Shown here: positions 4,668-20,237 of the stretch, piece by piece
Numbering within the stretch: position 1 is the first letter of the stretch
Layout: each line of letters opens with the position of its first letter
Origin: Caproiciproducens sp. CPB-2
GTDB lineage: Bacteria; Bacillota; Clostridia; Oscillospirales; Acutalibacteraceae
Direction of reading: 5' to 3'
DNA length: 64,000 nt
Assembly: GCF_036287215.1 (NCBI RefSeq)
Contig: NZ_CP142860.1
Location: forward strand, 2,666,001-2,730,000
The notes under the pieces: generated by a model
Told to the model about the DNA's origin: nothing
Databases searched by the model: none
The model's input: the letters and a program-made list of their open reading frames with translations, nothing else
Program-made: the position numbers and the translations under genes

Positions 4668-6125
4668 TTATAATCCTTTGGAAAAATCCCTGATGTGGAA
4701 CGCGTCCGACAAAACACATCTGCGTTTTCTGCAGAAGGATTTCGCGCTGGTCAGGCCCTCGCCGGTCGGCCCCGCGATGGTAAAGGTGGTGTGGCCCTCG
4801 CCGCCCACTCCGATGCCCGCGTAGGACGGGGCGTTCTTGACAAAGATGGTGGTCTGCAAAAGCTTTGCCATCTTGGTCAGCTTATCGACATTTTTGGAGT
4901 GCATCATAGCGGTGTGGCGGTTGCCCCTTTCCGCGATGAGGGCAAGGTCGATCGCTTCGTCTACGTTTCTCGTCCGGACGATCGGAAGAATCGGCATCAT
5001 CAGCTCCTCCATCACGAACGGATGGTCCTTCGGCGTTTCCATGATGATGACCTTGACCTCCGGCCCGGCCTGAATCCCGATTTTATCAAGGATATAAACG
5101 GCGCTCTTGCCGACAAAGGATGTTTTGGGCCCGCCGCCTTCCTTCCTGACCAGATCGGCAAGCTTTTGGATCACGGCGGGATCCGTCACCTGATAGGCGC
5201 CGTTTTCCTTCATGCTGCGGATCAGCTCGTCGGTGATCCGGTCGACCGCGATGACCTCTTTCTCCGCGATGCAGGGAAGGTTGTTGTCAAAGCTGCAGCC
5301 GTTGACGATATCGATCGCCGCCTTTTTGACGTCCGCGGTTTCGTCGACCACGACGGGCGGATTTCCCGCGCCGGCGCCGATGGCCTTTTTCCCGGTGGAC
5401 ATGACGAGCTTGACGATTCCCGGGCCGCCCGTCGCGACCAGCATCCTGATTTTCGGATGCTTCATCATGACGTTGGTATTTTCAATGGACGGCTCCATGA
5501 CGGTAACGATCAGGTTCTTCGGCGCGCCGGCTTCTTCCAGCGCCCTGTTGATCATGGTGACCAGCCTGATGGTAACGTCCTTTGCCCTCGGGTGCGGGCT
5601 GAACACAATCGAATTTCCCGCCGCAAGCATCCCTATGGAATTGCAGATAATGGTTTCCGTCGGGTTGGTCGCGGGCGTAATCGCGCCGATGACCCCAAAC
5701 GGGCAATATTCCACGAGGGTAAGGCCGTCGTCTCCGGACAGGGCCGTTGTTTCCAAATCCTCAATGCCGGGTGACTTTTCCGCGGCCAGCCTGTTTTTGA
5801 TCAATTTGTGGGGATAATTTCCCATTCCGGTTTCTTCCACGGCCAGCCGGGAGATCAGTTCCAGATTCTCCTGTTTCAGGACCACGTCCCGCAGGGTCTG
5901 GACATATTTCTGCCTTTCGGCCATGGAACAGAACAAGTACTGCTTCTGGGCGATGTCACAGGCGTCGATCGCCTCTTCCATGGTATTGAAAATTCCGCAG
6001 GAACCGCCTTTTTCTTCCTTTTTTATTTCGGGAGCGGCGGTTTTTTCCGCTTTGGCTTTGCCCGCGTCCATTTCGTTCAGTACCTGTTTGACCATTTTTT
6101 CAATTAAATTCGCATCTATATCCAT
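4668..6125 (-). CDS. pduP: CoA-acylating aldehyde dehydrogenase with N-terminal encapsulation peptide (PduP-like, copy 2)
   Basis: 485 residues, matching PduP/EutE-type enzymes that oxidise aldehyde plus CoA and NAD+ to acyl-CoA. The catalytic cysteine is in SFDNNLPCIAEKEV. The glycine-rich NAD region and the family ending RRCVLSDAFHIR are present. The first ~18 residues (MDIDANLIEKMVKQVLNEM) form a short amphipathic helix, then a Lys/Ala/Glu-rich linker to about residue 45: the classic layout of an encapsulation peptide. Propionaldehyde is the likely substrate given the diol dehydratase. A second paralogue at 11750-13120 lacks the long linker, suggesting a division of labour inside and outside, or mixed cargo. 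Confidence 0.9.
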   Translation of the reverse strand: MDIDANLIEKMVKQVLNEMDAGKAKAEKTAAPEIKKEEKGGSCGIFNTMEEAIDACDIAQKQYLFCSMAERQKYVQTLRDVVLKQENLELISRLAVEETGMGNYPHKLIKNRLAAEKSPGIEDLETTALSGDDGLTLVEYCPFGVIGAITPATNPTETIICNSIGMLAAGNSIVFSPHPRAKDVTIRLVTMINRALEEAGAPKNLIVTVMEPSIENTNVMMKHPKIRMLVATGGPGIVKLVMSTGKKAIGAGAGNPPVVVDETADVKKAAIDIVNGCSFDNNLPCIAEKEVIAVDRITDELIRSMKENGAYQVTDPAVIQKLADLVRKEGGGPKTSFVGKSAVYILDKIGIQAGPEVKVIIMETPKDHPFVMEELMMPILPIVRTRNVDEAIDLALIAERGNRHTAMMHSKNVDKLTKMAKLLQTTIFVKNAPSYAGIGVGGEGHTTFTIAGPTGEGLTSAKSFCRKRRCVLSDAFHIRDFSKGL

Positions 6126-6993: not shown

Positions 6994-8193
6994 TCAATTA
7001 CAAATCAGCCTTGCGGCCGATTGAATTGCTTTTTCCTGCAGCAGCTGCACTTTGTCAAGCTTTTCCCACTGAAAATCCTGGTCCTCCCGGCCAAAGTGCC
7101 CGTACGCCGCGGTCTTTAAAAACTGCGGTTTCCGAAGCTTCAGCTGCTCCAAAATATCGGCTACGGAAAAGGAAAAGGTCTGCCTGACTGCGGAATCAAT
7201 ATATTTCTTTTTGATCCGCTCCGTACCGAACGTGTTGATGGTGACGGCAACGGGGTCGGCCATGCCGATCGCGTAGGCCAGCGCCACTTCGCATCTTCCG
7301 GCCAGCTTAGCCGCGACGATGTTTTTTGCCGCGTAGCGGGCCATATAGGCCGCCGAACGGTCCACCTTTGTCGGGTCCTTCCCGGAAAAGGCGCCGCCGC
7401 CGTGCTTTCCGACCCCGCCGTAAGTATCGACCATGATCTTGCGGCCGGTCAGCCCTACGTCCGCAGCCGGGCCGCCGATGACGAAGCGGCCGGTCTGATT
7501 AATGTAGATTTTGGTCTCGCCGTTCATCCATTTGGGGTCTACCTCGCTCTGGATGACTTTATGTAAAATGGTGTTGTATACGGTTTCATAGCCGACGTCC
7601 GCCTCGTGCTGCGCGGACACGACGATCCCGGTAAGGCAGAGGGGCTCTCCCTTTGCGCCGTACTTCATGGTCACCTGGCTTTTCCCGTCCGGGTACAGCC
7701 AGGGAACGGTTCCGTCCTTTCGGACCTGCGCAAGCTTCATAACCAGCCGGTGCGCCAGATCGATGGTCGCCGGCATGTAGTGCTCCGTTTCGTCGCACGC
7801 GTAGCCGTACATCATCCCCTGGTCCCCCGCGCCGAAAACTTTTTTTCCGCAATCCGCCGTCCGTGAAGAATCCACTCCCCGGGCGATATCCGGCGACTGG
7901 GAAGTAAGGTTGGTCAGAACGACGGCGTTTTGGCAGTCAAAGCCGGTACAGGGACGCGTGTAGCCGATCTTTTTCACGATTTCCCTTGCGACGCCGGGAA
8001 CATCCACCTTTGCTTCGGACGTTACCTCGCCCGCAATCATAATCGTGCCGGGTGAAATCATGGTCTCCACGGCTACCCGGGACTCCGGGTCCTCCGCCAG
8101 ATACGCATCCAATATCCCATCTGAAATCTGATCGCATATTTTGTCCGGATGCCCTTCCGTGACAGATTCCGATGTTACCAAATACTCATCCAT
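6994..8193 (-). CDS. metK: S-adenosylmethionine synthetase
   Basis: 399 residues, full length. The family motifs are intact: GHPDKICDQISD near residue 15 (ATP-binding His and Asp), GAGDQGMMYGYA near residue 120, and the P-loop-like GGGAFSGKDPTKVDRS near residue 260. MetK makes SAM from methionine and ATP. It lies 10 bp after the response regulator gene and its stop overlaps the first possible codon of pduL, so it is inside the microcompartment operon. The glycyl radical enzyme activase consumes SAM, which gives a direct reason for the placement. Whether this is the only metK of the genome cannot be seen. Confidence 0.97.
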   Translation of the reverse strand: MDEYLVTSESVTEGHPDKICDQISDGILDAYLAEDPESRVAVETMISPGTIMIAGEVTSEAKVDVPGVAREIVKKIGYTRPCTGFDCQNAVVLTNLTSQSPDIARGVDSSRTADCGKKVFGAGDQGMMYGYACDETEHYMPATIDLAHRLVMKLAQVRKDGTVPWLYPDGKSQVTMKYGAKGEPLCLTGIVVSAQHEADVGYETVYNTILHKVIQSEVDPKWMNGETKIYINQTGRFVIGGPAADVGLTGRKIMVDTYGGVGKHGGGAFSGKDPTKVDRSAAYMARYAAKNIVAAKLAGRCEVALAYAIGMADPVAVTINTFGTERIKKKYIDSAVRQTFSFSVADILEQLKLRKPQFLKTAAYGHFGREDQDFQWEKLDKVQLLQEKAIQSAARLICN

Positions 8194-8203
8194 TCTCTCT
8201 TCC

Positions 8204-9232
8204 CTACCTTGATTTCAAAGCGTTGTCCTGTTCCAGAGCCAGCGATTTTTTATACTGGAACACGGTCACATGTTCATATTTTTTAAAGACCTTGCTGAAA
8301 TAGCTGCTCTCGTTATAGCCAAGGCGGAACGCGACGTCGATAATGTTCAGGTCGGTAAAGGAAAAATACCCTTTTGCGATGGTCAGCTTCCGCATATGCA
8401 GATATTCAATGACGCTTACTCCCATCTGCTGCATAAAGATGCGGCTCAGGTACCCCTGACTGATATTGCAGTGGTCCACAATCTGGTTCAGGCCGATATC
8501 CTTTTTGATGTTTTCATCGATGTAGCGGAACACGGATTCCAGCACCTTGTACTTTTTAATGCTGACCTGCTGGAAAATGTAATTCATGACATTGAACAGC
8601 CAGAATTCCAGGCTCTTTTTTTCGGAGAGCAGAACCTCCGTCATCGGGAACAGCTCTTCGCATTTTATCTGCTCCTCATTCAGCCAGTCCAGCATGCTCA
8701 TCAGGCTCTGTCCCAGCTTCATAAACGTGGCTTTCAGCTGTTCGGGGTCACTGCCCGTATCGGAGTAAATTTCATTCACAATCTGCGGAATCCGGTAGTA
8801 CATTTTTTTGAAATCTTTTTCTTTAAGGATGGAGAAAAGGGAGTCCGTCTGCTTTCCGTATTTTTTATGAGATTCCGAATAGCCGTCGAGCAGGCTCTTA
8901 ATAAGGGCCCCGGTAACCGGCTTTGAAATATATTCCCGGACCTCCGCTTTCAAAGCCTCGCGTGCAAACTCGAAATTGTTATAGGCGGAAACAATATAGA
9001 TCGTAATGTTGTGGTTGCTCGTATAAATCTGTTTGCTCGCTTCGATCCCGGAGATCCCCGGCATCATAATATCCATAAATACAATATCGATTTTTTCCGT
9101 TTTGCAAACCTCTACGGCGTCCTCTCCATTGGCAACAGTGCGCACGACAGTAAAGCCACTCACGTCGGACACCATGATCCGCATGGCTTCTCTCATCAGT
9201 TCTTCATCATCAGCAATCATTACCCGATACAT
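8204..9232 (-). CDS. AraC-type response regulator (YesN-like) of the microcompartment locus
   Basis: 342 residues. The receiver domain (about 1-120) has the acidic pair ADDEE near residue 8, the phospho-acceptor Asp55 in VFMDIMMPG, the switch Ser in IVSAYN and the Lys in ISKP, so it should be phosphorylatable. A middle region of about 110 residues follows. The C-terminal ~100 residues hold two AraC helix-turn-helix motifs (IGLNQIVDHCNISQGYLSRIF and INIIDVAFRLGYNESSYFSKVF types). It starts directly after the PocR sensor stop codon, so the two form a pair, probably the substrate-responsive activator of the operon. Confidence 0.9.
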   Translation of the reverse strand: MYRVMIADDEELMREAMRIMVSDVSGFTVVRTVANGEDAVEVCKTEKIDIVFMDIMMPGISGIEASKQIYTSNHNITIYIVSAYNNFEFAREALKAEVREYISKPVTGALIKSLLDGYSESHKKYGKQTDSLFSILKEKDFKKMYYRIPQIVNEIYSDTGSDPEQLKATFMKLGQSLMSMLDWLNEEQIKCEELFPMTEVLLSEKKSLEFWLFNVMNYIFQQVSIKKYKVLESVFRYIDENIKKDIGLNQIVDHCNISQGYLSRIFMQQMGVSVIEYLHMRKLTIAKGYFSFTDLNIIDVAFRLGYNESSYFSKVFKKYEHVTVFQYKKSLALEQDNALKSR

Positions 9233-10531
9233 TTACAGTACCTTTTCATCAAAGTTTTTTGGATATTTAATCAGACACTTTGTTCCGCTTTTCTCGCTGT
9301 ATTGCATAACAACGTCGTACTGCGGGCCAAAGGAACTGACCAGCCTCTGTCTGATACTGGAGATCCCCGTTTCTATGGTATCTCCTTCGTAACCGCCTTC
9401 TTTATACGATTTGAACCTCTGCGAAATTTTTTCCTCGTTCAGTCCCAGACCGCTGTCCTCTATGGAAATAGCCACGTCGCTGTCCCTATAAGAAACCGAA
9501 ATCCGTACGGTGCCGCCTTCCCGCTTTTGGTCAATCCCGTAAAAAACCGCCTTTTCCACAAAGGGAAGAACGATAAATTTCGGAATCCGCTGCATATGTA
9601 TATTTTCCGCAATGCCAATGGAATAGTTCAGCCGCTCTCCCAGCCGGACCTTCTGTATTTTCAGATACCGTTCAATATTTTCCATTTCATCCGCTACGGA
9701 GATGGAATTTTGGGTATTGATAAGATTATACCGTAAGAACTCCGCGAACAGCGTCACCATTTCATTGGTCTTCGGGGCCTTTTCAATGACCGCCAGATTG
9801 GAAATGGAGTTCAGACACCGGAATAAAAAGGAGGGGTTCATCTGCGACTGCAGCGCGGTCAGCTCGGCGTTCTTAAGGCTGTACTCCAGTTCCATTCTTT
9901 TTCGCTTCTCACTCAGGTTTTCCATTTCCTTGTTTAAAGTTTCCTTGAGCATCAGCCTGGACAGTTCCTTTTCGCCAAGCTGGTTGACAATCAGAGAAAT
10001 CATGTCCGCTATATTGACAAACTGTTCGTAGGACATTTCCTGTATTTTATTGAACAGGTTGCTCTTGCTGACTTTATAATCCTCCGCGTGGTGCATCACG
10101 GTTTCCAGCCTGCATACATTCGTAGGGGCGTCGTTGCACCGGATTTGCCCCCCGATAAAGCCTCCGAGGTAGTGCCCCCGGACGATAATCGGAATGGCGA
10201 CCTCCATCAGCCCGCAGGGACAGAAATACACCGAGGTTTTCTGTGTCACCGCGGCCTGGATCGCGCCGAACGCATCAGAGGACCAGCAAAGGCGTTTTTC
10301 TCCTTCATTCCTCCTGATTTCTTGACAGAATTCGGTGAAAGAGGTCATTTCCGTGACCGGTTCGCCCTTAAAATCCACCGTGACAAACGCCAGACCCGTC
10401 GCTTTGGAAATCTTTTCCTGGATATCTTCTAACTTCTCTTTCCCAAAAAGATGGTTGATATCGAAATTATTGAACACACTGTCTTCATCCTGCACCAAAT
10501 CTTTAATTTTGGTATTTAAGAACTCATCCAT
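9233..10531 (-). CDS. PocR-domain sensor with LytS-like histidine kinase region lacking the phospho-acceptor His
   Basis: 432 residues, no membrane segment. Residues about 25-190 match a PocR ligand-binding domain, with CWSSDAFGAIQ and FCPCGLMEVAIPI and VRGHYLGGFIGGQ segments. PocR domains sense small hydrocarbon derivatives such as 1,3-propanediol. A coiled coil (about 190-228) leads to a LytS-type region. Its usual NPHFLFN phospho-acceptor motif reads NPSFLFR here, so Ser234 replaces His. The N-box VENAxxHG reads VEKAVFYG, so Lys327 and Tyr331 replace conserved residues. A partial G-box (DSGLGL) remains. It is probably a degenerate kinase that senses ligand but does not autophosphorylate in the usual way. 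The gene abuts the response regulator gene. Confidence 0.85.
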   Translation of the reverse strand: MDEFLNTKIKDLVQDEDSVFNNFDINHLFGKEKLEDIQEKISKATGLAFVTVDFKGEPVTEMTSFTEFCQEIRRNEGEKRLCWSSDAFGAIQAAVTQKTSVYFCPCGLMEVAIPIIVRGHYLGGFIGGQIRCNDAPTNVCRLETVMHHAEDYKVSKSNLFNKIQEMSYEQFVNIADMISLIVNQLGEKELSRLMLKETLNKEMENLSEKRKRMELEYSLKNAELTALQSQMNPSFLFRCLNSISNLAVIEKAPKTNEMVTLFAEFLRYNLINTQNSISVADEMENIERYLKIQKVRLGERLNYSIGIAENIHMQRIPKFIVLPFVEKAVFYGIDQKREGGTVRISVSYRDSDVAISIEDSGLGLNEEKISQRFKSYKEGGYEGDTIETGISSIRQRLVSSFGPQYDVVMQYSEKSGTKCLIKYPKNFDEKVL

Positions 10532-11749: not shown

Positions 11750-13120
11750 CTAACGAATGGTAAAGGCGTCCATCAGCGTGCATCTTCTCCTTCTTGCGAA
11801 ATGTCTTGCGGTCGTGGTTCCTTCCCCGGTGATTGTCGCAATGGTAAAGCTGGTGTCGCCCTCCCCTTTGTAGCCGATCCCGGCCAGGGAAGAGCCGTTT
11901 TTCACGAAGACGGAGGTCTGCATTTTCTTTGCCGCCCGGTTCAGCCGCTCAATGGATTGGGAGTGGATGGTCGCGGTGTGGCGGAACCCCTGTTCGATTT
12001 CAAAGGCGGTTTCCAGCGCTTCGTCGAAGTCGGCCACCCTGACAAGGGGGACAACCGGCATCAGCATTTCCAGCGTGACAAACGGATGATGCTGAATGGT
12101 GTCGACCACGATCAGCCGGACGGTTTCACTGCAGGGGATTTTGGCCGCCTTTAAAATTTCATTGGCGCTTTTGCCTTCAAACGCTTTGTTGATGCCCATG
12201 TCCTGTGTGACGGTCACGGAGGTCAGCTTCAGCATTTCTTCCTCGTTATGGATATAGTAAACGTTGTTTTTCTTAAGCTCTTCCACAAATTCATCCGCGG
12301 CAGCCGCGACGACGACGATGCTCTTTTCCGAGATGCACATGACGTTGTTGTCAAAGGAAGCGCCCTCGACGATATCCCTTGCCGCCTGCTTCAGATCGGC
12401 CGTTTCGTCGACGATGGCGGTCGGATTCCCCGGCCCCGCGCCGATCACTTTTTTGCCGCTGGCAAGCGCCTCTCTCAGAACGCCGCTGCCGCCCGTAGTC
12501 ACCACCATGGAGATATCGGGGTGCGTCATCAGCTCGCGGGTCACCGCCATGGAGGTATCCCCCAGCGTGACGACCAGATTGTCGATGCCGCAGGTGTCAC
12601 GGATGGCGACGTTGATCATTTCCGTTACGAACTGGGAAACCTTGATGGCTCTGGGGTGCGGGACATGCACGACGGCGTTGCCCGCGGCCAGCAGGCCGAT
12701 GGTATTGTTAATGAGTGTGGCGCACGGATTGGTGCAGGGATGCACGGCGCAGACGACGCCGTAGGAGGACAGTTCATACAGGGTCATCCCGCTGTCTCCC
12801 GTTTTCACCTCGGTGATCAAATCCTCCACGCCGGGCGTTTTCCGAATGGCCAGAAGGAGCTTTTTGACCTTATCTTCGACATTGCCCATTCCGGTTTCTT
12901 CCGCCGCCATTTCAGCGATCATATTCACCAGCGGCAAAAGCTCTTCTTTTATCGCGTCGATGACTTCCTGACGTTCATTCAGCGTAAACCTGGAATACTG
13001 GGCGTAGGCCCCCTGGGCTACCGCAACAGCATCATTCACCGAACGGAAGACCCCGCTTCTTACCGTATCGCTGCAGGTCAGGTATTTCTTCACCAATTCT
13101 CCAATTTGTGCAGTATTCAT
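11750..13120 (-). CDS. CoA-acylating aldehyde dehydrogenase (PduP/EutE-like, copy 1)
   Basis: 456 residues. The catalytic Cys is in SFDNNVMCISEKS, the NAD region has AGNAVVHVPHPRA, and the end is RRRRCTLMDAFTIR as in the PduP/EutE family. The N terminus starts with a short helix (MNTAQIGELVKKYL) fused to the domain with little linker, unlike the paralogue at 4668-6125. It oxidises an aldehyde to acyl-CoA with NAD+. Two acylating aldehyde dehydrogenases in one locus may differ in chain length preference or in location relative to the shell; the sequence alone does not decide which. Confidence 0.9.
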   Translation of the reverse strand: MNTAQIGELVKKYLTCSDTVRSGVFRSVNDAVAVAQGAYAQYSRFTLNERQEVIDAIKEELLPLVNMIAEMAAEETGMGNVEDKVKKLLLAIRKTPGVEDLITEVKTGDSGMTLYELSSYGVVCAVHPCTNPCATLINNTIGLLAAGNAVVHVPHPRAIKVSQFVTEMINVAIRDTCGIDNLVVTLGDTSMAVTRELMTHPDISMVVTTGGSGVLREALASGKKVIGAGPGNPTAIVDETADLKQAARDIVEGASFDNNVMCISEKSIVVVAAAADEFVEELKKNNVYYIHNEEEMLKLTSVTVTQDMGINKAFEGKSANEILKAAKIPCSETVRLIVVDTIQHHPFVTLEMLMPVVPLVRVADFDEALETAFEIEQGFRHTATIHSQSIERLNRAAKKMQTSVFVKNGSSLAGIGYKGEGDTSFTIATITGEGTTTARHFARRRRCTLMDAFTIR

Positions 13121-13437: not shown

Positions 13438-13704
13438 CTAAATATCCATCGTATCGATAATGCCTACAATGGCCATGTCAACGGAGACATTATGCTTTTG
13501 AACACGCACGGCCGACCCGGAGCAGACCAGGACATACTCCCCGATGCCCGCCCCCACATAATCGGCGGCAACCTCTTCGGAGCCGATGTTGCGCTTCTGG
13601 GAATCGATTTTCTGAATAATCATCAGCTTAAAGCCGACCAGGGATTCTTCCTTCCGCGTCGCAACAACATTACCCACCACTTTTGCCATATAAATGGTAA
13701 TCAC
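13438..13704 (-). CDS. EutN/CcmL-type pentameric vertex protein (BMC-P)
   Basis: 88 residues, the standard size for EutN/PduN/CcmL proteins. It begins MITIYMAKVVGNVVAT and has the conserved VGFKLMIIQ and VGAGIGEYVLVCSGSAVR segments of the family. Five copies form the pentamers that cap the vertices of the polyhedral shell, so one BMC-P gene is needed to close it. It is the only BMC-P gene in the window. The spacing to the upstream BMC-H gene is 29 bp. Confidence 0.93.
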   Translation of the reverse strand: MITIYMAKVVGNVVATRKEESLVGFKLMIIQKIDSQKRNIGSEEVAADYVGAGIGEYVLVCSGSAVRVQKHNVSVDMAIVGIIDTMDI

Positions 13705-13733: not shown

Positions 13734-14606
13734 TTATTTCTCTTTTTTGGCCCTTGGCTTTCTGGGCGGCTGTTTGGATGTCCCCTTTTCTTTCACTACC
13801 GTGTTCCTGGGGCCGGTGCTTCCCGCTGCCGTGGATTTTCTCGTCCCCGTTCTGCCGGACGGTTTGGCTTTGACTTCCGGCTGGGAAACGGCCGGTTCCT
13901 TCCCTGGGGAAACAGCGGGCGGATCCTGCGGCTTTTCTTCCTCCGCCGGGAATTTGGCGGGGGCTTTCCTCTCCGTTTTTGCTTCCGTCTGAATCGTCTC
14001 CGGCACCGGCGCGGGGATTTCCTTTGCCGGGACAACCGCTTCCGGTCCGGGCAGAGGGGCTGCTTCCACGGGCAAAACCGTTTCCGGCTCCGTCAGGACG
14101 GCTTCCTGCGCGGGAACTGCAGCCGCTTCCTGTGCGGGCTCCGGCGGAACAGTTTCTTCCGTTTGCGGTGCCGTGGGGGGCTCCTGAACAGGTTCTTCCG
14201 GCTTCGCTTCCGGAATTTCCGGCGCTGCAGGAACTTCCGGCTCCGGTTCGGGTTCGGGCTCCGGCGGCTTCGGCGGCTTCGGCGCGGGAGGTTCCGGCTG
14301 ATCCGGCGGCGTTTTTTCATCCTCTTTTTTCTCAGTCTGACAAAATACTCTTTCAACGCTGTCCGCAGGTCTGGGAATCACTTTGGAAGAAATATAGTGC
14401 TGGAAGGTCTCGCCGACTTGCTTGCCCGCGCTGACGGCGGCGTTTACGGCTGCCACATCGCCAGTGATCTTCACGGTAATCCAGCCGTGTCCTCTTGCTT
14501 TTTCGATCTGGATAATCGTCACATTCGCTGTTTTCACCATGGTGTCCGCTACTAAAACGGCCGTTGCCAGTCCCCGTATTTCTATTAACCCCAATGCGTT
14601 TTTCAT
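13734..14606 (-). CDS. BMC-H shell protein with long charge-segregated C-terminal tail
   Basis: 290 residues. Residues about 1-88 are a normal hexameric BMC domain (MKNALGLIEIRG, then ITVKITGDVAAVNAAV). The next ~160 residues are low complexity: Pro/Glu-rich with a PEPEPEPE run, then Pro/Ala/Glu/Val-rich. The last ~45 residues are strongly basic (Lys, Arg, Ser, Thr, Gly, ending RKPRAKKEK). PduK-like shell proteins also carry C-terminal extensions, but an acidic-then-basic disordered tail this long is unusual. It could face the cytosol and position the compartment, or act as a scaffold in the lumen. Start: ATG at 14606 with AAGGTG upstream. Confidence 0.9.
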   Translation of the reverse strand: MKNALGLIEIRGLATAVLVADTMVKTANVTIIQIEKARGHGWITVKITGDVAAVNAAVSAGKQVGETFQHYISSKVIPRPADSVERVFCQTEKKEDEKTPPDQPEPPAPKPPKPPEPEPEPEPEVPAAPEIPEAKPEEPVQEPPTAPQTEETVPPEPAQEAAAVPAQEAVLTEPETVLPVEAAPLPGPEAVVPAKEIPAPVPETIQTEAKTERKAPAKFPAEEEKPQDPPAVSPGKEPAVSQPEVKAKPSGRTGTRKSTAAGSTGPRNTVVKEKGTSKQPPRKPRAKKEK

Positions 14607-14693: not shown

Positions 14694-15440
14694 TTACTGT
14701 CTGACGATTTCAATGCCCAGCCGGGACGCCTTCTCCTTCGCCAGAGCGGTCAGAAGATCACCCGGGCGCAGCACGATCCGTCCTTCCTGCGCAAATCTGT
14801 CGATATCGCCTTCCGTAATCACTTTGTGCCCGCTTCCCGCGCGCGGCGTCGGCTGGACCCGTGTGATCCCGGGATTTCTTGGAACCGGTTCTCCGTCAAA
14901 AAGTTCCTCTTTGATTTCAATGCCGTACTGAGCGATGATTTTGTAATATTCCCGTATTCTGGCGGCATACGCCGCGGGTTCCTTCCCCGTAAGCGGTTCC
15001 AGACCCGATTTCAGCAGCACGATTTTCTGGCCGTTCGCCATGCAGCTCTGTACCCATTTTGTCTCGAAGGTATCGCCGATGCACAGCGCGGTTTTGACTA
15101 CAAGCTCTCTCGGAGCGGCCGGGAAAACGGTCGTGCCGTCCGACAGCTTTGCCAGATCGGCTTCCTCCTGCCTGAGGACAGTGCCGCAGCCTTGGCATTC
15201 CCTGAGCTTTTTCATGTGATAGTCGTTTGTCATGGAAGGGGGAACCACCGTAACGACCCGGTATTCGCGCCGGTCCTTCAGCTTTTCAAAAAGGGAACGG
15301 TATTCCTCTCTCCATCCTTCGGTAAGGATGACATACAATTTCTGTCCGGGTACGGAGGAATTGGGCAGCAAATTTTCAGCCTGCATTTTCTGTATCACTT
15401 TTAAGATAATCTGATACAGATTGTTTTCATTGATTTCCAC
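14694..15440 (-). CDS. Microcompartment-associated flavoprotein-like protein
   Basis: About 248 residues from a GTG at 15440, which has AAAGGAGG at good spacing; an ATG further up lacks one. The core (about 35-190) has the layout of the FMN-binding flavoprotein (decarboxylase-like) family found in microcompartment loci, including LYVILTEGW and a CxxC pair in RECQGCGTV. The first ~22 residues form an amphipathic helix (ENNLYQIILKVIQKM), a likely encapsulation peptide. After a Pro/Arg linker the last ~45 residues (KVITEGDIDRF ... RLGIEIVRQ) resemble the end of the protein at 2954-3607. Its reaction is unknown; a redox or assembly role is possible. Confidence 0.65.
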   Translation of the reverse strand: MEINENNLYQIILKVIQKMQAENLLPNSSVPGQKLYVILTEGWREEYRSLFEKLKDRREYRVVTVVPPSMTNDYHMKKLRECQGCGTVLRQEEADLAKLSDGTTVFPAAPRELVVKTALCIGDTFETKWVQSCMANGQKIVLLKSGLEPLTGKEPAAYAARIREYYKIIAQYGIEIKEELFDGEPVPRNPGITRVQPTPRAGSGHKVITEGDIDRFAQEGRIVLRPGDLLTALAKEKASRLGIEIVRQ

Positions 15441-15592
15441 GGTACCCCTCCTTTGCTTTCCAAAACTTTTTATCCGGACTAATGAAAAGGCGGTCATGAT
15501 AGGAAGGAATCAGGGAAGAGCTTTCCCCGACCCTTCCGTACCATTAACGCCCTACACCGTCACGTGTGGAAGAAGAATTGAGTGGTGATGAA

Positions 15593-15871
15593 TTAGTCCA
15601 TATGAGGGATAATCTTCTCAGTGTCCGAATGAGGACGGGGAATGACGTGGATGGAGACCACTTCGCCGACCATTTTGGCGGAAGCCGCTCCGGCGTCCGT
15701 CGCGGCCTTGACGGCCCCGACGTCTCCGCGTACCATAACCGTTACCAGTCCGGAACCGATCTTTTCGTAGCCGACCAGGGTGACGTTCGCCGCCTTGACC
15801 ATGGCATCGGCTGCTTCAATTGCCGGTACGAGTCCATGTGTTTCGATCATACCCAGTGCATCAGAGTTCAT
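15593..15871 (-). CDS. Major hexameric shell protein (PduA/EutM-like BMC-H)
   Basis: 92 residues, a single BMC domain: [24 protein letters not shown] at the start, then [19 protein letters not shown] and SIHVIPRPH near the end. Such proteins form the hexameric tiles of the shell facets, and their pores admit substrate and products. The pore-loop region reads [10 protein letters not shown], as in small-metabolite-permeable PduA types. It lies between the flavoprotein and the PduB-like shell gene. Lack of any tail fits the main facet protein. Confidence 0.95.
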
Positions 15872-15901: not shown

Positions 15902-16690
15902 TTAAATATATGGATGAGTGGTTGATTTTGGCTCGGAGCCCAACGCGCCAAGCAGCTTCAGACCGACATCTCTGGCCGCTCTGACCGCCTGCCGTACGGC
16001 GCCGGAATCTCCCGTAAAGATAAGAATCACTTCGTTCGAGTAGCTGGTTCCGCCGTTGCCCGGAGAGCTGTAGCAGACCACGTCCACACTCGCCGCCTTG
16101 ACGGCCACATCCGCCAGAACCGTGCCGATCGCGGCGGGGCCCGCGCAGGTCATGCCGAACGCTTTGCCCAGAGGGGATCCGAACGCCTTTTCAAGGCACT
16201 GGCTGGCTCTTGCCGAATACTGGAATTCCAGATGTCCGGCATCGTTCCCGTAAACATCGCCGAAGTATTTCGGAAGGCTGGCCAGGGCGATTTCCACCGC
16301 TCTTCTCGCGTCCGAAACATCCTCCGCTCCGATATAGATCAAGTCGCCGTGACCGGCCCCGCCCTTCGTATCTCTGGGCAGCTCGATCGTGATCACTTCC
16401 GTATTGGTTGCTTTGACGGCGTCATCCACCGCCATAATCTGCGGGCCTGCCCCCGTTCTGCCGCCGATAATCCCGATTGAACGGTATTTACCGAGCTTCA
16501 TCACGTCGACAAGCATCGGGTCCACGCTGGCGATGACCAATCCGATCGTATCGCCTACAGAGGTACCCACAAATTCTGTCACTCCCAGTGAACTGCAAGG
16601 TGTACCGGTTTCCGCTGCTTTTTCCTCAGGTTTTATTTTCAGTTCATCGGCAACCTGCTGCACTACCTTATTGATTAATTGCTGGTCCAT
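15902..16690 (-). CDS. pduB: PduB-like tandem-domain trimeric shell protein (BMC-T)
   Basis: 262 residues with two permuted BMC domains, as in PduB/EutL-type pseudohexameric trimers that can form gated pores. The second domain ends VILIFTGDSGAVRQAVRAAR. The first ~20 residues (MDQQLINKVVQQVADEL) form an amphipathic helix, as in PduB, where the N terminus connects the shell to the enzyme core. This helix resembles that of the aldehyde dehydrogenase at 4668-6125 (LI-K-V-QV-E pattern). The gene lies 28 bp after the activase stop codon. Confidence 0.92.
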   Translation of the reverse strand: MDQQLINKVVQQVADELKIKPEEKAAETGTPCSSLGVTEFVGTSVGDTIGLVIASVDPMLVDVMKLGKYRSIGIIGGRTGAGPQIMAVDDAVKATNTEVITIELPRDTKGGAGHGDLIYIGAEDVSDARRAVEIALASLPKYFGDVYGNDAGHLEFQYSARASQCLEKAFGSPLGKAFGMTCAGPAAIGTVLADVAVKAASVDVVCYSSPGNGGTSYSNEVILIFTGDSGAVRQAVRAARDVGLKLLGALGSEPKSTTHPYI

Positions 16691-16717: not shown

Positions 16718-17638
16718 TTAACCACCAATAATACATTCGAAGCCCTGCTCTTCAACCACGGTTTTTAATGCCTGTATCTTATCAGGAGTCAGTGTCTTCA
16801 CATCCTTCATCAGATAGTCCCTGCCCAAAAGCTCGTATTTGTTTTCCCCGTAGGTGTGATACGGCAGCAAATGGATTGTCTTGATATTGTGTAATGTTTT
16901 CGCGAACCTGCTGATTGCGAGAATGTCCTCTTCCGTGGCGTTTACCCCGGGGATGGTGGGGACCCGGATCACTGTCTGGGTGATTTCGGATACCCTGACG
17001 GCGTTTCGCAGAATGAGCTCGTTGCTTACCCCCGTGTATTTTTTATGCACCTCAGGATTCATTGATTTGATATCCATCAGGGCCAAATCCACATAGGGAA
17101 GCACCTTTTCGATCGCTTCGCCGGCCGCATACGCAGTCGTTTCGATTGCCGTATGCCATCCCTGTTCTTTGGAGGCCCTGAGCAGTTCCATTGTAAAATC
17201 GGACTGCACCAGGGGTTCCCCTCCTGAAACGGTGATTCCGCCGCCGGAGCGCCGGTAGGTCGTCGCGTCCTTTCTCAGCTCCAGCACCACCTGCTGCACG
17301 GTCATTGCGGCGCCTTTCAGCACCAGCGCGCCCGTGGGGCAGACATTGGCGCATTCTCCGCATCCAATACAGAGCTCCCGGTTGATCAGGCCCTTGTTGT
17401 TTGGATCGATCGCTCCCTGCCTGCAGGCTTTGATACATCTTCCACAATGAATACAACGCATTTTCTGATAAGTAATCACCGGTTTCAGCTTTTGGGATTC
17501 AGGATTACAGCACCATTGGCATGACAAAGGACATCCTTTTAAAAATACGATCGTGCGGATACCAGGACCATCATGTACGGAAAACCTCTGTATGTCGAAG
17601 ACAAGTCCCGATGCGCTATAATTGATAGAATCCACCAC
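16718..17638 (-). CDS. Glycyl radical enzyme activase (radical SAM)
   Basis: 306 residues. The radical SAM motif CxxxCxxC is in GCPLSCQWCCNP near residue 35. Two ferredoxin-type clusters follow at about 60-110 (CIHCGRCIKACRQ and CIGCGECANVCPTG), as in activases of glycerol/propanediol dehydratase and choline lyase. A GGITVSGGEP motif binds SAM. It generates the glycyl radical on the enzyme encoded just upstream; the gap is 52 bp. The gene needs SAM, which the metK gene in the same locus can provide. Confidence 0.95.
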   Translation of the reverse strand: MVDSINYSASGLVFDIQRFSVHDGPGIRTIVFLKGCPLSCQWCCNPESQKLKPVITYQKMRCIHCGRCIKACRQGAIDPNNKGLINRELCIGCGECANVCPTGALVLKGAAMTVQQVVLELRKDATTYRRSGGGITVSGGEPLVQSDFTMELLRASKEQGWHTAIETTAYAAGEAIEKVLPYVDLALMDIKSMNPEVHKKYTGVSNELILRNAVRVSEITQTVIRVPTIPGVNATEEDILAISRFAKTLHNIKTIHLLPYHTYGENKYELLGRDYLMKDVKTLTPDKIQALKTVVEEQGFECIIGG

Positions 17639-17690: not shown

Positions 17691-20237
17691 TCAGAAGGTC
17701 TGCTCCGTACGGCTGATGATATCGTCCTGCACTTCTTTTGCCAGCACGACAAACTGTGCGCTGTATCCGGCAACGCGTACTACCAGGTCCTTATACTGGT
17801 CGGGGTTTTTCTGGGCGGCCAGCAGGGTATCCCTGTCAACAACGTTGAACTGCACATGCATGCCCTTGTGGTCGAAGTAGCTTCTGACAACGGAGGCGAA
17901 GTTTTGCAGCCCCGTGTCCCCTGCGAGCGCGGAGGGCAGGAATTTCTGGTTCAGCAGTGTTCCGTTCGACGCGATAAAGTGGTCCAGCTTGGCGACGGAA
18001 TTCAGTGCCGCGGTGGGTCCCTTTACGTCCTTGCCCTGTCTGGGCGACACGCCGTCCGCCAAAGGCTGCTTTGCAAGTCTGCCGTCCGGCAGCGCGCCGA
18101 CGTCTTTCCCGAACAGCACGTTGGCCGATACCGGGTATACGCCCGCCTGGAACTGGCCGCCGCGCGGATTGGTGTACTTCTGAACCTCTTCGCAGTAGAT
18201 TCTGGCGATCTTGCGGGAAACCATATCGACTTCGTCAATATCGTTTCCGAAGCATTCCGTGTTGTCCATCAGTCTGAAAATATTCTCATAGTCGCCGCTG
18301 CAGGAGGAGGTCGCGCAGGAATCCTTTACGCCGCACATCTTCTGCAGGTCGGCCATATCGATATTGCTGGAATTGCCGAGGACCTTTCTGACGGCCTCAT
18401 AGATCTTCTGCTCCGTAAGGGCATCCGCCGTGCTGCTGCAGGGATCCGCTCCGCCGGCTTTGGCGCCGACCGGGCGGCCGAAGTTCGCGTCCACAGCTTC
18501 TTTCAGCTGGGCGGCGGTGATGTCCCTGTCGCGGAACACGTGCTTATCCATCGCATAGACGGAGTCGCCGGAATCGGCGATACCAAACGCCTGCGGGCCG
18601 GTGAAGTTGTAAATGGCTCCGCCTTCCTGTACGGACTTGCCGCGCTTGATGCAGTCGTCAACCATAGCCGACTGGAACGGGAGCGGGCATCTTTCCGCAT
18701 GGGCCAGGTCGACGCAGTTGTCGGCTTCCGCCAGATGCCGTACGAAATAAGACATTTCCTTCTTGAATGCATCGTAGAACTCGTCAATGGATTTCCACTG
18801 GCTCATATCCGGGACGACCGGACCGAGCTGTTTGTCGCCGGCCTTGCCGCCGTGGATGGTGATATCCAGGACCTTGGCGACATTGAAGAACGCGGCGTCG
18901 TGCCAGCCCTCGGTCTTGTGCGGGCACTGCGGCTCGACACACCCGATGATGCAATAGTTGCGGGCGTCTTCCAGGGATACGCCCCTGTTTTCAAGCGCCG
19001 GAATAATGACTTCGTCATTGTACATTGCGGGGAAGCCCAGCCCGAGACGGGCAAGCTCGCACGCTCTGTAGAGGAATTCGTCCGGGGTTCCCTGCCACAC
19101 GCGGATGGAGAAGGAAGGCGCCGGCAACTTTGTGTGCGCGCACGCTTCCATCATCATGTAGGAAACGTCATTGGTGGCATCCAGCCCGTCTTCGGTCTGG
19201 CCGCCTGCGCCGATGTTCTGGAACACCGCGTAGCCGGCGAATGCCTGAGCGGAAATCTCGTCGCGGGTCTTGTTGACGTCGTTGAGCTTGATCCAGATGC
19301 AGTCGATCAGCTCCTGCGCGAATTCCTTCGAGATATTCTTGTCCGCGGCAAGATACGGATACATATACATGTCGAAGCGGCCGGGAGAAATGGAGTGTCC
19401 GCTGGACTCGATCTGCATCATGCTCTGGATAAACCAGAAGGACTGGCAGGCCTCGTAGAAATTGCGGGCGCCGTTTTCCGGCACTCTGTCGCAGTTGGCG
19501 GCGATCTGCAGAAGCTCGGCCTTTCTTGTGGCGTTTGTTTCCGAAGCGGCCAGCCTTCTTGCTTCGTCGGCATATCTGTGGGCGAAATTGATGGCCGCGT
19601 TATAAGTAATAATCAAAGCGTTGTAGAACTGCTGCTTCTTTATGTAGCTGGGGTCCGACAGGTCCATCTTCATCATGGCGTCGACCACTTCTGCAATGAT
19701 CCCGCGGAAGCCTTTTTCCAAAATCTTGCCGTAGTCCACGCACACATGGCCTACGCCGCCGTAGAAGTAATTGCCCACCGTAAATACGCCGGCCGCCTGG
19801 CAGTCCTTTGTTTCCTGGGACATGTAGGAAGAAGCAAGCTCGCTTGTCGTCTTCCCGGGCCAGTACTTGAAGGCCTCGTGCAGCTTCTGGGCGGTCTCCT
19901 TCGGAATCACGAACGGGTCCGCCAGTCTTGTGGCCATGGTGTCGAATTCCTTCTCGACCCAGTCAAAGGAAAATTCGGGGCAGATTTCCGTTGAGCGGGG
20001 ATGCTTGGTGATGGCGCCGACGATCAGCTCGTCGTCACGGATGGTAACGGGAAGATTGTTGAAGATCTTCTCGTCCGCCTTGGCGCGTCTCATAATCGGG
20101 GGAAGTCCTTCCGTTTCCTTATAAGACTCCGTAACCAGAACCGCTCTTTCCGACTCAACATAAGGGGTTGCGTCCAAAATCATTTTCTTTAGCTTTTCAA
20201 CCCTTGCCGTTGGTTTGGAAAATCCTTTTTCTATCAC
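17691..20237 (-). CDS. Glycyl radical diol dehydratase (B12-independent propanediol dehydratase type) with 61-residue insert
   Basis: 848 residues from a GTG at 20237 preceded by a perfect AAGGAGG; the longer frame to 20372 adds unconvincing sequence. The glycyl radical loop is VVRVAGYSA (Gly824). The thiyl cysteine and base are in GCVEPQ (Cys433, Glu435). Relative to Cys433, residues known from Clostridium butyricum glycerol dehydratase fall at the same numbers: His164 (GVGHVCVDY), His281 and Ser282 (SSGHSISPGRFD), Asp447 (GWHDAAF); its Tyr640 corresponds to Tyr701 after the insert. Choline lyase has Thr and Tyr at +13 and +17 from the Cys; here these are His and Phe. The insert (about 587-650) has Cys600, 635, 641 and 646 and an amphipathic helix. 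Likely reaction: 1,2-propanediol to propionaldehyde. Confidence 0.88.
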   Translation of the reverse strand: MIEKGFSKPTARVEKLKKMILDATPYVESERAVLVTESYKETEGLPPIMRRAKADEKIFNNLPVTIRDDELIVGAITKHPRSTEICPEFSFDWVEKEFDTMATRLADPFVIPKETAQKLHEAFKYWPGKTTSELASSYMSQETKDCQAAGVFTVGNYFYGGVGHVCVDYGKILEKGFRGIIAEVVDAMMKMDLSDPSYIKKQQFYNALIITYNAAINFAHRYADEARRLAASETNATRKAELLQIAANCDRVPENGARNFYEACQSFWFIQSMMQIESSGHSISPGRFDMYMYPYLAADKNISKEFAQELIDCIWIKLNDVNKTRDEISAQAFAGYAVFQNIGAGGQTEDGLDATNDVSYMMMEACAHTKLPAPSFSIRVWQGTPDEFLYRACELARLGLGFPAMYNDEVIIPALENRGVSLEDARNYCIIGCVEPQCPHKTEGWHDAAFFNVAKVLDITIHGGKAGDKQLGPVVPDMSQWKSIDEFYDAFKKEMSYFVRHLAEADNCVDLAHAERCPLPFQSAMVDDCIKRGKSVQEGGAIYNFTGPQAFGIADSGDSVYAMDKHVFRDRDITAAQLKEAVDANFGRPVGAKAGGADPCSSTADALTEQKIYEAVRKVLGNSSNIDMADLQKMCGVKDSCATSSCSGDYENIFRLMDNTECFGNDIDEVDMVSRKIARIYCEEVQKYTNPRGGQFQAGVYPVSANVLFGKDVGALPDGRLAKQPLADGVSPRQGKDVKGPTAALNSVAKLDHFIASNGTLLNQKFLPSALAGDTGLQNFASVVRSYFDHKGMHVQFNVVDRDTLLAAQKNPDQYKDLVVRVAGYSAQFVVLAKEVQDDIISRTEQTF

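Follow-up and report, generated by a model that had tools for sequence, protein, structure and literature searches.

The dehydratase gene and its locus

The 64,000-nucleotide stretch of the Caproiciproducens sp. CPB-2 genome analyzed here (contig NZ_CP142860.1, positions 2,666,001 to 2,730,000; hereafter, the window) carries on its minus strand, at 17691..20237, a gene for an 848-residue glycyl radical enzyme (GRE) with a 61-residue internal insert, which is the subject of this report. The protein is a glycyl radical 1,2-propanediol dehydratase of the type found with GRM3 microcompartments and matches PF02901 (pyruvate formate lyase-like domain, E = 5e-239) and PF01228 (glycine-radical domain, E = 1e-37). 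Its start codon is the GTG at 20237, with GGAGG upstream, and all insert coordinates were computed from this codon. C433 and G824, which we take to be the active-site cysteine and the radical glycine of the GRE family, are invariant in an alignment of 58 sequences (the window sequence and those from 57 loci). The closest solved structures are 9rco (75% identity), 1r8w (60%) and 5i2g (53%). Both 9rco and 5i2g are titled 1,2-propanediol dehydratase, and the 9rco sequence is without the insert, either naturally or by design.

The neighboring open reading frame (ORF) at 16718..17638 (minus strand) encodes the GRE activating enzyme (activase), with a ferredoxin-like Cys-rich stretch recognized by eye. 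Its identity is based on position, inspection by eye and homology across the 77 fetched loci (L007-L083), of which all except the partial L074 contain a homologue (76/77). Also on the minus strand are two bacterial microcompartment (BMC) shell genes matching PF00936, a PduA-like one (15593-15871) and a PduB-like one (15902-16690), whose product has a helix at its N terminus and a cysteine-containing linker; a gene for a EutN-type protein (13438-13704, PF03319); a BMC-H gene (13734-14606, PF00936) with a long tail that reads as low-complexity sequence; and an aldehyde dehydrogenase (AldDH) gene (11750..13120, PF00171), whose product has a short N-terminal helix-like stretch, MNTAQIGELVKKYL. ORFs resembling S-adenosylmethionine (SAM) synthetase (6994-8193) and a regulator (8204-10531) were recognized by eye, and the ORF at 14694-15497 had no Pfam match. 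The combination of GRE, activase and AldDH genes with shell genes of the BMC-domain and EutN types makes up a GRM3 locus, for which SAM synthetase, flavoprotein and two-component genes are listed as ancillary (PMC4207490). A search of the whole genome retrieved seven BMC-domain matches, all of them inside the window.

Structure, conservation and distribution of the insert

When the GRE is aligned with the Clostridium butyricum glycerol dehydratase (1r8w), residues 2-586 pair without gaps with residues 2-586, and residues 650-846 pair with residues 589-785. The net excess is 61 residues, the number given in the original prediction, which had been made from the window sequence. The two proteins share a common core fold, and their starts are level, so the GRE has no N-terminal extension or peptide, also as predicted. 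The insert, residues 588-648 (18294..18476, minus strand), reads RPVGAKAGGADPCSSTADALTEQKIYEAVRKVLGNSSNIDMADLQKMCGVKDSCATSSCSG.

An AlphaFold model of the GRE built from the 58 sequences has a mean predicted local distance difference test score (pLDDT) of 86.4 and a predicted template modelling score of 0.87. Within the insert, ten-residue means of pLDDT are 34-49, and two short helices are modelled at low confidence (609-621 and 628-634). The insert is thus probably mobile, or else its placement is undefined; burial of the helix in the fold, named beforehand as an outcome that would speak against a targeting role, was not seen, although no burial calculation was made. The insert has an amphipathic, encapsulation-peptide-like helix 1, LTEQKIYEAVRKVL (607-620; 18378..18419, minus strand), and a helix 2, IDMADLQKMC (626-635; 18333..18362, minus strand). 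Only the first of them had been named in the original prediction.

Conservation was analyzed in homologues from the 77 loci. Four of these (L073, L074, L078 and L079) were excluded as broken or partial, which left 73 rows; the own-genome GRE L006 is absent from them, and wrong N-terminal trimming of L066, L070 and L071 affects N-terminal columns only. The helices were scored in 67 rows (66 loci and the query), a count that excludes three insertless homologues, four GRM5-like ones (L064-L067) and own-genome paralogues. In helix 1, Glu is found at position 609 in 65 of the 67 rows, positions 612, 616, 619 and 620 are hydrophobic in every row and position 615 in 66; in helix 2, position 631 is L, I or V in 61 rows. 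The linkers on either side of helix 1 drift in both length and sequence among the insert-bearing homologues. Fixed hydrophobic positions between drifting linkers are the pattern expected for an amphipathic binding helix held on free linkers. With a hydrophobic moment of 0.66, helix 1 lies at the 98th percentile among 12-mers of the GRE.

The insert is present in 70 of the 73 full-length homologues, 66 of which are GRM3-like and four GRM5-like (with inserts of 44-48 residues), and is missing from three (L070, L071 and L077). Shell-protein homologues were detected in the fetched flanks of 62 of the 70 insert-bearing genes and of none of the three insertless ones (tblastn, E <= 1e-3). The eight insert-bearing genes whose flanks lack a shell gene (L051-L055, L062, L068 and L069) all come from genomes that carry BMC domains. 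Since the L055 flank extends for only 387 bases on one side, its exception may be due to a contig end; the other seven are from metagenome-assembled genomes, several of them from ruminants, with a split GRM3 arrangement. In one such split case (G007), the GRE gene, the sole match of the query GRE in that genome, lies beside activase-, SAM synthetase- and regulator-like ORFs with no shell gene. The three insertless GREs come from one genome devoid of BMC domains and from two in which BMC domains lie away from the insertless GRE.

The search was then widened to 196 genomes from the same class; with GRE matches kept at E <= 1e-150, 27 of them gave a match. Beyond the own genome, 24 of these are insert-bearing by unbroken alignment, and BMC domains were found in 23 of the 24, on the contig of the GRE itself in at least 15. 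In G082 there are two GREs, of which the first is insertless and the other carries a short insertion of a different kind, and the match in another genome (G209) is cut off.

The Caproiciproducens genome itself contains a second insert-bearing GRE gene (2369763-2372285), ca. 311 kb away from its only BMC locus. Its product is 72% identical to the query GRE; the insert helix has diverged, and a Cys-His-Cys motif (GCHC) sits between the helices. Activase and shell homologues were not found in the surrounding 5 kb, and none were seen by eye in 20 kb. This second enzyme is possibly a cargo in trans.

Packaging and oligomerization as candidate roles

We estimate the probability that the insert is an intramolecular encapsulation peptide of a GRM3-type propanediol dehydratase, an internal segment that would bind shell or cargo, at about 85%. 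Such a peptide has been described in Rhodopseudomonas palustris BisB18 for a GRM3 propanediol dehydratase (Zarzycki et al. 2017, PMC5311937), which the enzyme studied here resembles in type, in having an insert relative to C. butyricum, in the two helices joined by a short loop, in the flexible linkers and in the lack of an obvious terminal peptide. A deletion variant of the R. palustris enzyme is reported to be more soluble and to retain activity (PMC5311937). An insert of about 60 residues has been described as a class feature of GRM3, GRM4 and GRM5 GREs (Ferlez et al. 2019, PMC6325248); in size, enzyme type and absence of an N-terminal peptide the insert-bearing GRE fits the description of this class, and no departure from it was found. 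The insert has the expected ca. 60 residues, is absent from the C. butyricum enzyme, which is not microcompartment-associated (PMC5311937), and contains two helices, one of them amphipathic, on flexible linkers, the helices being predicted at low confidence. Encapsulation peptides are generally defined as amphipathic helices of ca. 15-20 residues connected by a flexible linker to the N or C terminus of a cargo (PMC8217296); helix and linker are present here, whereas the terminal position is not, the insert being internal. The original prediction of a targeting helix in a flexible loop is supported by the gene context, the conservation pattern and the confidence values of the model, and the central idea of an internal packaging peptide in such GREs had already been published by 2017. 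The GRE of the window is an unexceptional, well-formed representative of a class already described.

The following mechanism is proposed. As the model and the conservation pattern suggest, two short helices on flexible linkers would extend from a loop on the enzyme core, and the hydrophobic face of helix 1 would bind other encapsulation helices, the inner face of the shell or both. In this way the dehydratase may be drawn into the microcompartment together with a piggy-backing activating enzyme; for a relative, the enzyme without the helices has been published as more soluble, active and able to bind its activase.

Likeness of helix 1 to other encapsulation peptides was scored by ranking 45-residue windows of proteins with a helix 1 profile and with ten control profiles; the score is unweighted, the sequences are related, and start sites are uncertain, above all those of AldDHs. 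The N terminus scored highest in 37 of 61 PduB proteins (controls at most 23) and in 21 of 32 flavoprotein-like proteins without a Pfam match (controls at most 16). In proteins expected to lack a peptide, it came out on top in 3 of 30 PduA (controls up to 9) and 2 of 77 activases (controls up to 6). The likeness to N-terminal helices suggested in the original prediction thus has partial support, from PduB and the flavoprotein-like proteins as groups; the AldDHs as a group, the third family it had named, are not favored by the score, as detailed below.

Single AldDHs score well with helix 1, for example that of L014 (MMNDGQIAAAVAKVLEAYG). Proteobacterial AldDHs, for example those of L014, L021, L036, L042, L044 and L072, have N-terminal extensions of ca. 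100 residues with, by eye, at least two encapsulation-like helices; in several such extensions cysteines are clustered, as in NCSCCKxxDC or SKRCCW. A second AldDH-like ORF of the window, starting near 6125 on the minus strand, opens with MDIDANLIEKMVKQVLNEMDAGKAKAEK, an encapsulation-like helix by eye. The N terminus of the PduB-like protein (window 16589-16690) contains an encapsulation-like helix, MDQQLINKVVQQVADEL, followed by a linker whose last four residues, PCSS, also occur in the GRE insert.

Several results weigh against a packaging role. Three of the 19 helices in the core surpass helix 1 in hydrophobic moment, so that amphipathicity alone is weak evidence. The AldDH N terminus was the top window for the helix 1 score in only 11 of 74 proteins, with controls up to 12. 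A profile search with helix 1 (62 rows) or with both helices (64 rows) against 3325 ORFs from the loci and a portion of the window matched only GREs at E <= 1; the looser score comparison above was run afterwards. The expectation that the insert should be confined to genomes with microcompartments holds for 23 of the 24 genomes of the class-wide sample and fails for the remaining one, G130: listed as 100% complete, it is insert-bearing and has no PF00936 match over the cut-off (the best has E = 0.08) and no PF03319 match at E <= 1. Its GRE contig (L162, G130:C9:1-7783) comprises 7783 bases with activase- and regulator-like ORFs, and an IS3-type transposase-like ORF pair, recognized by eye, adjoins the GRE gene; given the short contig and the transposase-like ORFs, shell-gene loss and an assembly gap are both possible. 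No packaging assay of such an insert was found in the literature searched, which covered few subscription journals. Finally, the insert of the Roseburia inulinivorans enzyme is reported to take part in an oligomer interface that has not been observed in other GREs (PMC5311937).

The last observation supports an alternative in which the insert serves mainly for oligomerization, linking GRE dimers to form larger assemblies, and packaging is indirect. The R. inulinivorans GRM5 enzyme (5i2a/5i2g), 53% identical overall, has its insert at the same site with a net length of 49 residues, in agreement with the original prediction. Chain 5i2a_B comprises 837 residues and chain 5i2g_B 796, which would fit an insert that is ordered in one crystal only, and the insert is retained where shell genes are located elsewhere. 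On the other hand, the R. inulinivorans insert aligns poorly with that of the query, GRM5-like inserts (L064-L067) differ in sequence from GRM3-like ones, and the co-occurrence of insert and shell genes is near complete. We therefore regard oligomerization as the main function as unlikely, while the two roles are mutually compatible.

Cysteines of the insert and of other linkers

The cysteines attributed to the insert in the original prediction, Cys600, 635, 641 and 646, are present (18300..18440, minus strand). The suggestion that they form a metal or redox-sensing site is not supported by the homologues, and such a site is highly improbable. In its favor, four cysteines in 61 insert residues are slightly more than expected from the 16 in 787 core residues (binomial P = 0.036, uncorrected for the choice of the insert by eye). 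Yet, with the query left out of the count, cysteines recur in the same column in only 3 (C600), 3 (C635), 7 (C641) and 3 (C646) of the 73 rows, and L007, whose GRE is 98% identical to the query, lacks C646. Over all clades, cysteine density is 2.4% in the insert and 2.1% in the core. A conserved metal site in the insert was therefore rejected, cysteine positions being conserved in neither the 73 nor the 67 rows. The insert cysteines are not mentioned in the accessible parts of PMC5311937 and PMC6325248, and the main text of PMC5311937 contains none of the terms "cysteines", "cysteine residues", "disulfide" and "metal".

The 67 rows were divided by taxon name into 27 proteobacterial ones (one of them from Deltaproteobacteria) and 40 others, which include the query and some named only "bacterium". 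The 27 proteobacterial inserts contain no cysteine in 1545 residues, a further point against a site and a difference from the query with its four; the R. palustris sequence was compared by description only. The 40 other inserts have a higher cysteine content than the respective cores (102 cysteines in 2599 residues versus 696 in 31,524), and 37 of them have at least one cysteine, which is the second point in favor of such a site. PduB N-terminal linkers contain 44 cysteines in 1216 residues outside Proteobacteria (23 of 34 proteins with cysteine) and 6 in 1135 within Proteobacteria (5 of 27), the proteobacterial figure being taken from an N-terminal residue count because the text-pattern count was unsuited to those proteins. 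In AldDH N termini the split is reversed, with 87 cysteines in 2356 residues in Proteobacteria (26 of 27 with cysteine) and 11 in 1271 in the others (10 of 49); these are ORFs rather than loci. For PduB and AldDH alike, the stretches counted reach as far as 90 residues ahead of the domain and may contain residues that precede the actual start. The low-complexity tails of 61 BMC-H proteins from the fetched loci have 9 cysteines in 7478 residues, a weak control for linker cysteines, as tail composition is very different. The tails of these 61 BMC-H-like ORFs are all longer than 40 residues, and that of the window protein (13734-14606) is ca. 200 residues long and rich in Pro, Glu and Ala.

In the 30 non-proteobacterial loci for which both proteins were identified, cysteines occur in both the GRE insert and the PduB linker in 17, in the GRE only in 10, in PduB only in 3 and in neither in none; the cysteine counts of the two segments showed no correlation in these loci (rho = -0.05, n = 30). 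As the sequences are related, none of the clade counts amounts to a significance test. The clade split of linker cysteines is an unexplained pattern and not evidence of a site. One could imagine that linker cysteines are free in position and functional nonetheless, locking the core by disulfides or metal upon oxidation, and that they are carried by the GRE insert and PduB in Firmicutes and by AldDH in Proteobacteria; we consider this a long shot. The four cysteines would instead be variable linker residues rather than a conserved site.

That the whole insert is a functionless, neutral spacer is hardly credible: a close relative has a core that folds and is active in its absence, and linker length and sequence vary freely, but the near-invariant positions of helix 1 are kept across Firmicutes and Proteobacteria while the linkers drift, and deletion of the insert in a relative has a reported solubility phenotype (PMC5311937).

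After this analysis, the cysteines no longer count as a likely conserved site. Since insert-bearing GREs can be encoded apart from shell genes, packaging in trans is to be considered. The part that is kept in 67 sequences is helix 1 and not the linker, and it is this helix that would be the part to transplant for packaging an enzyme via an internal loop.
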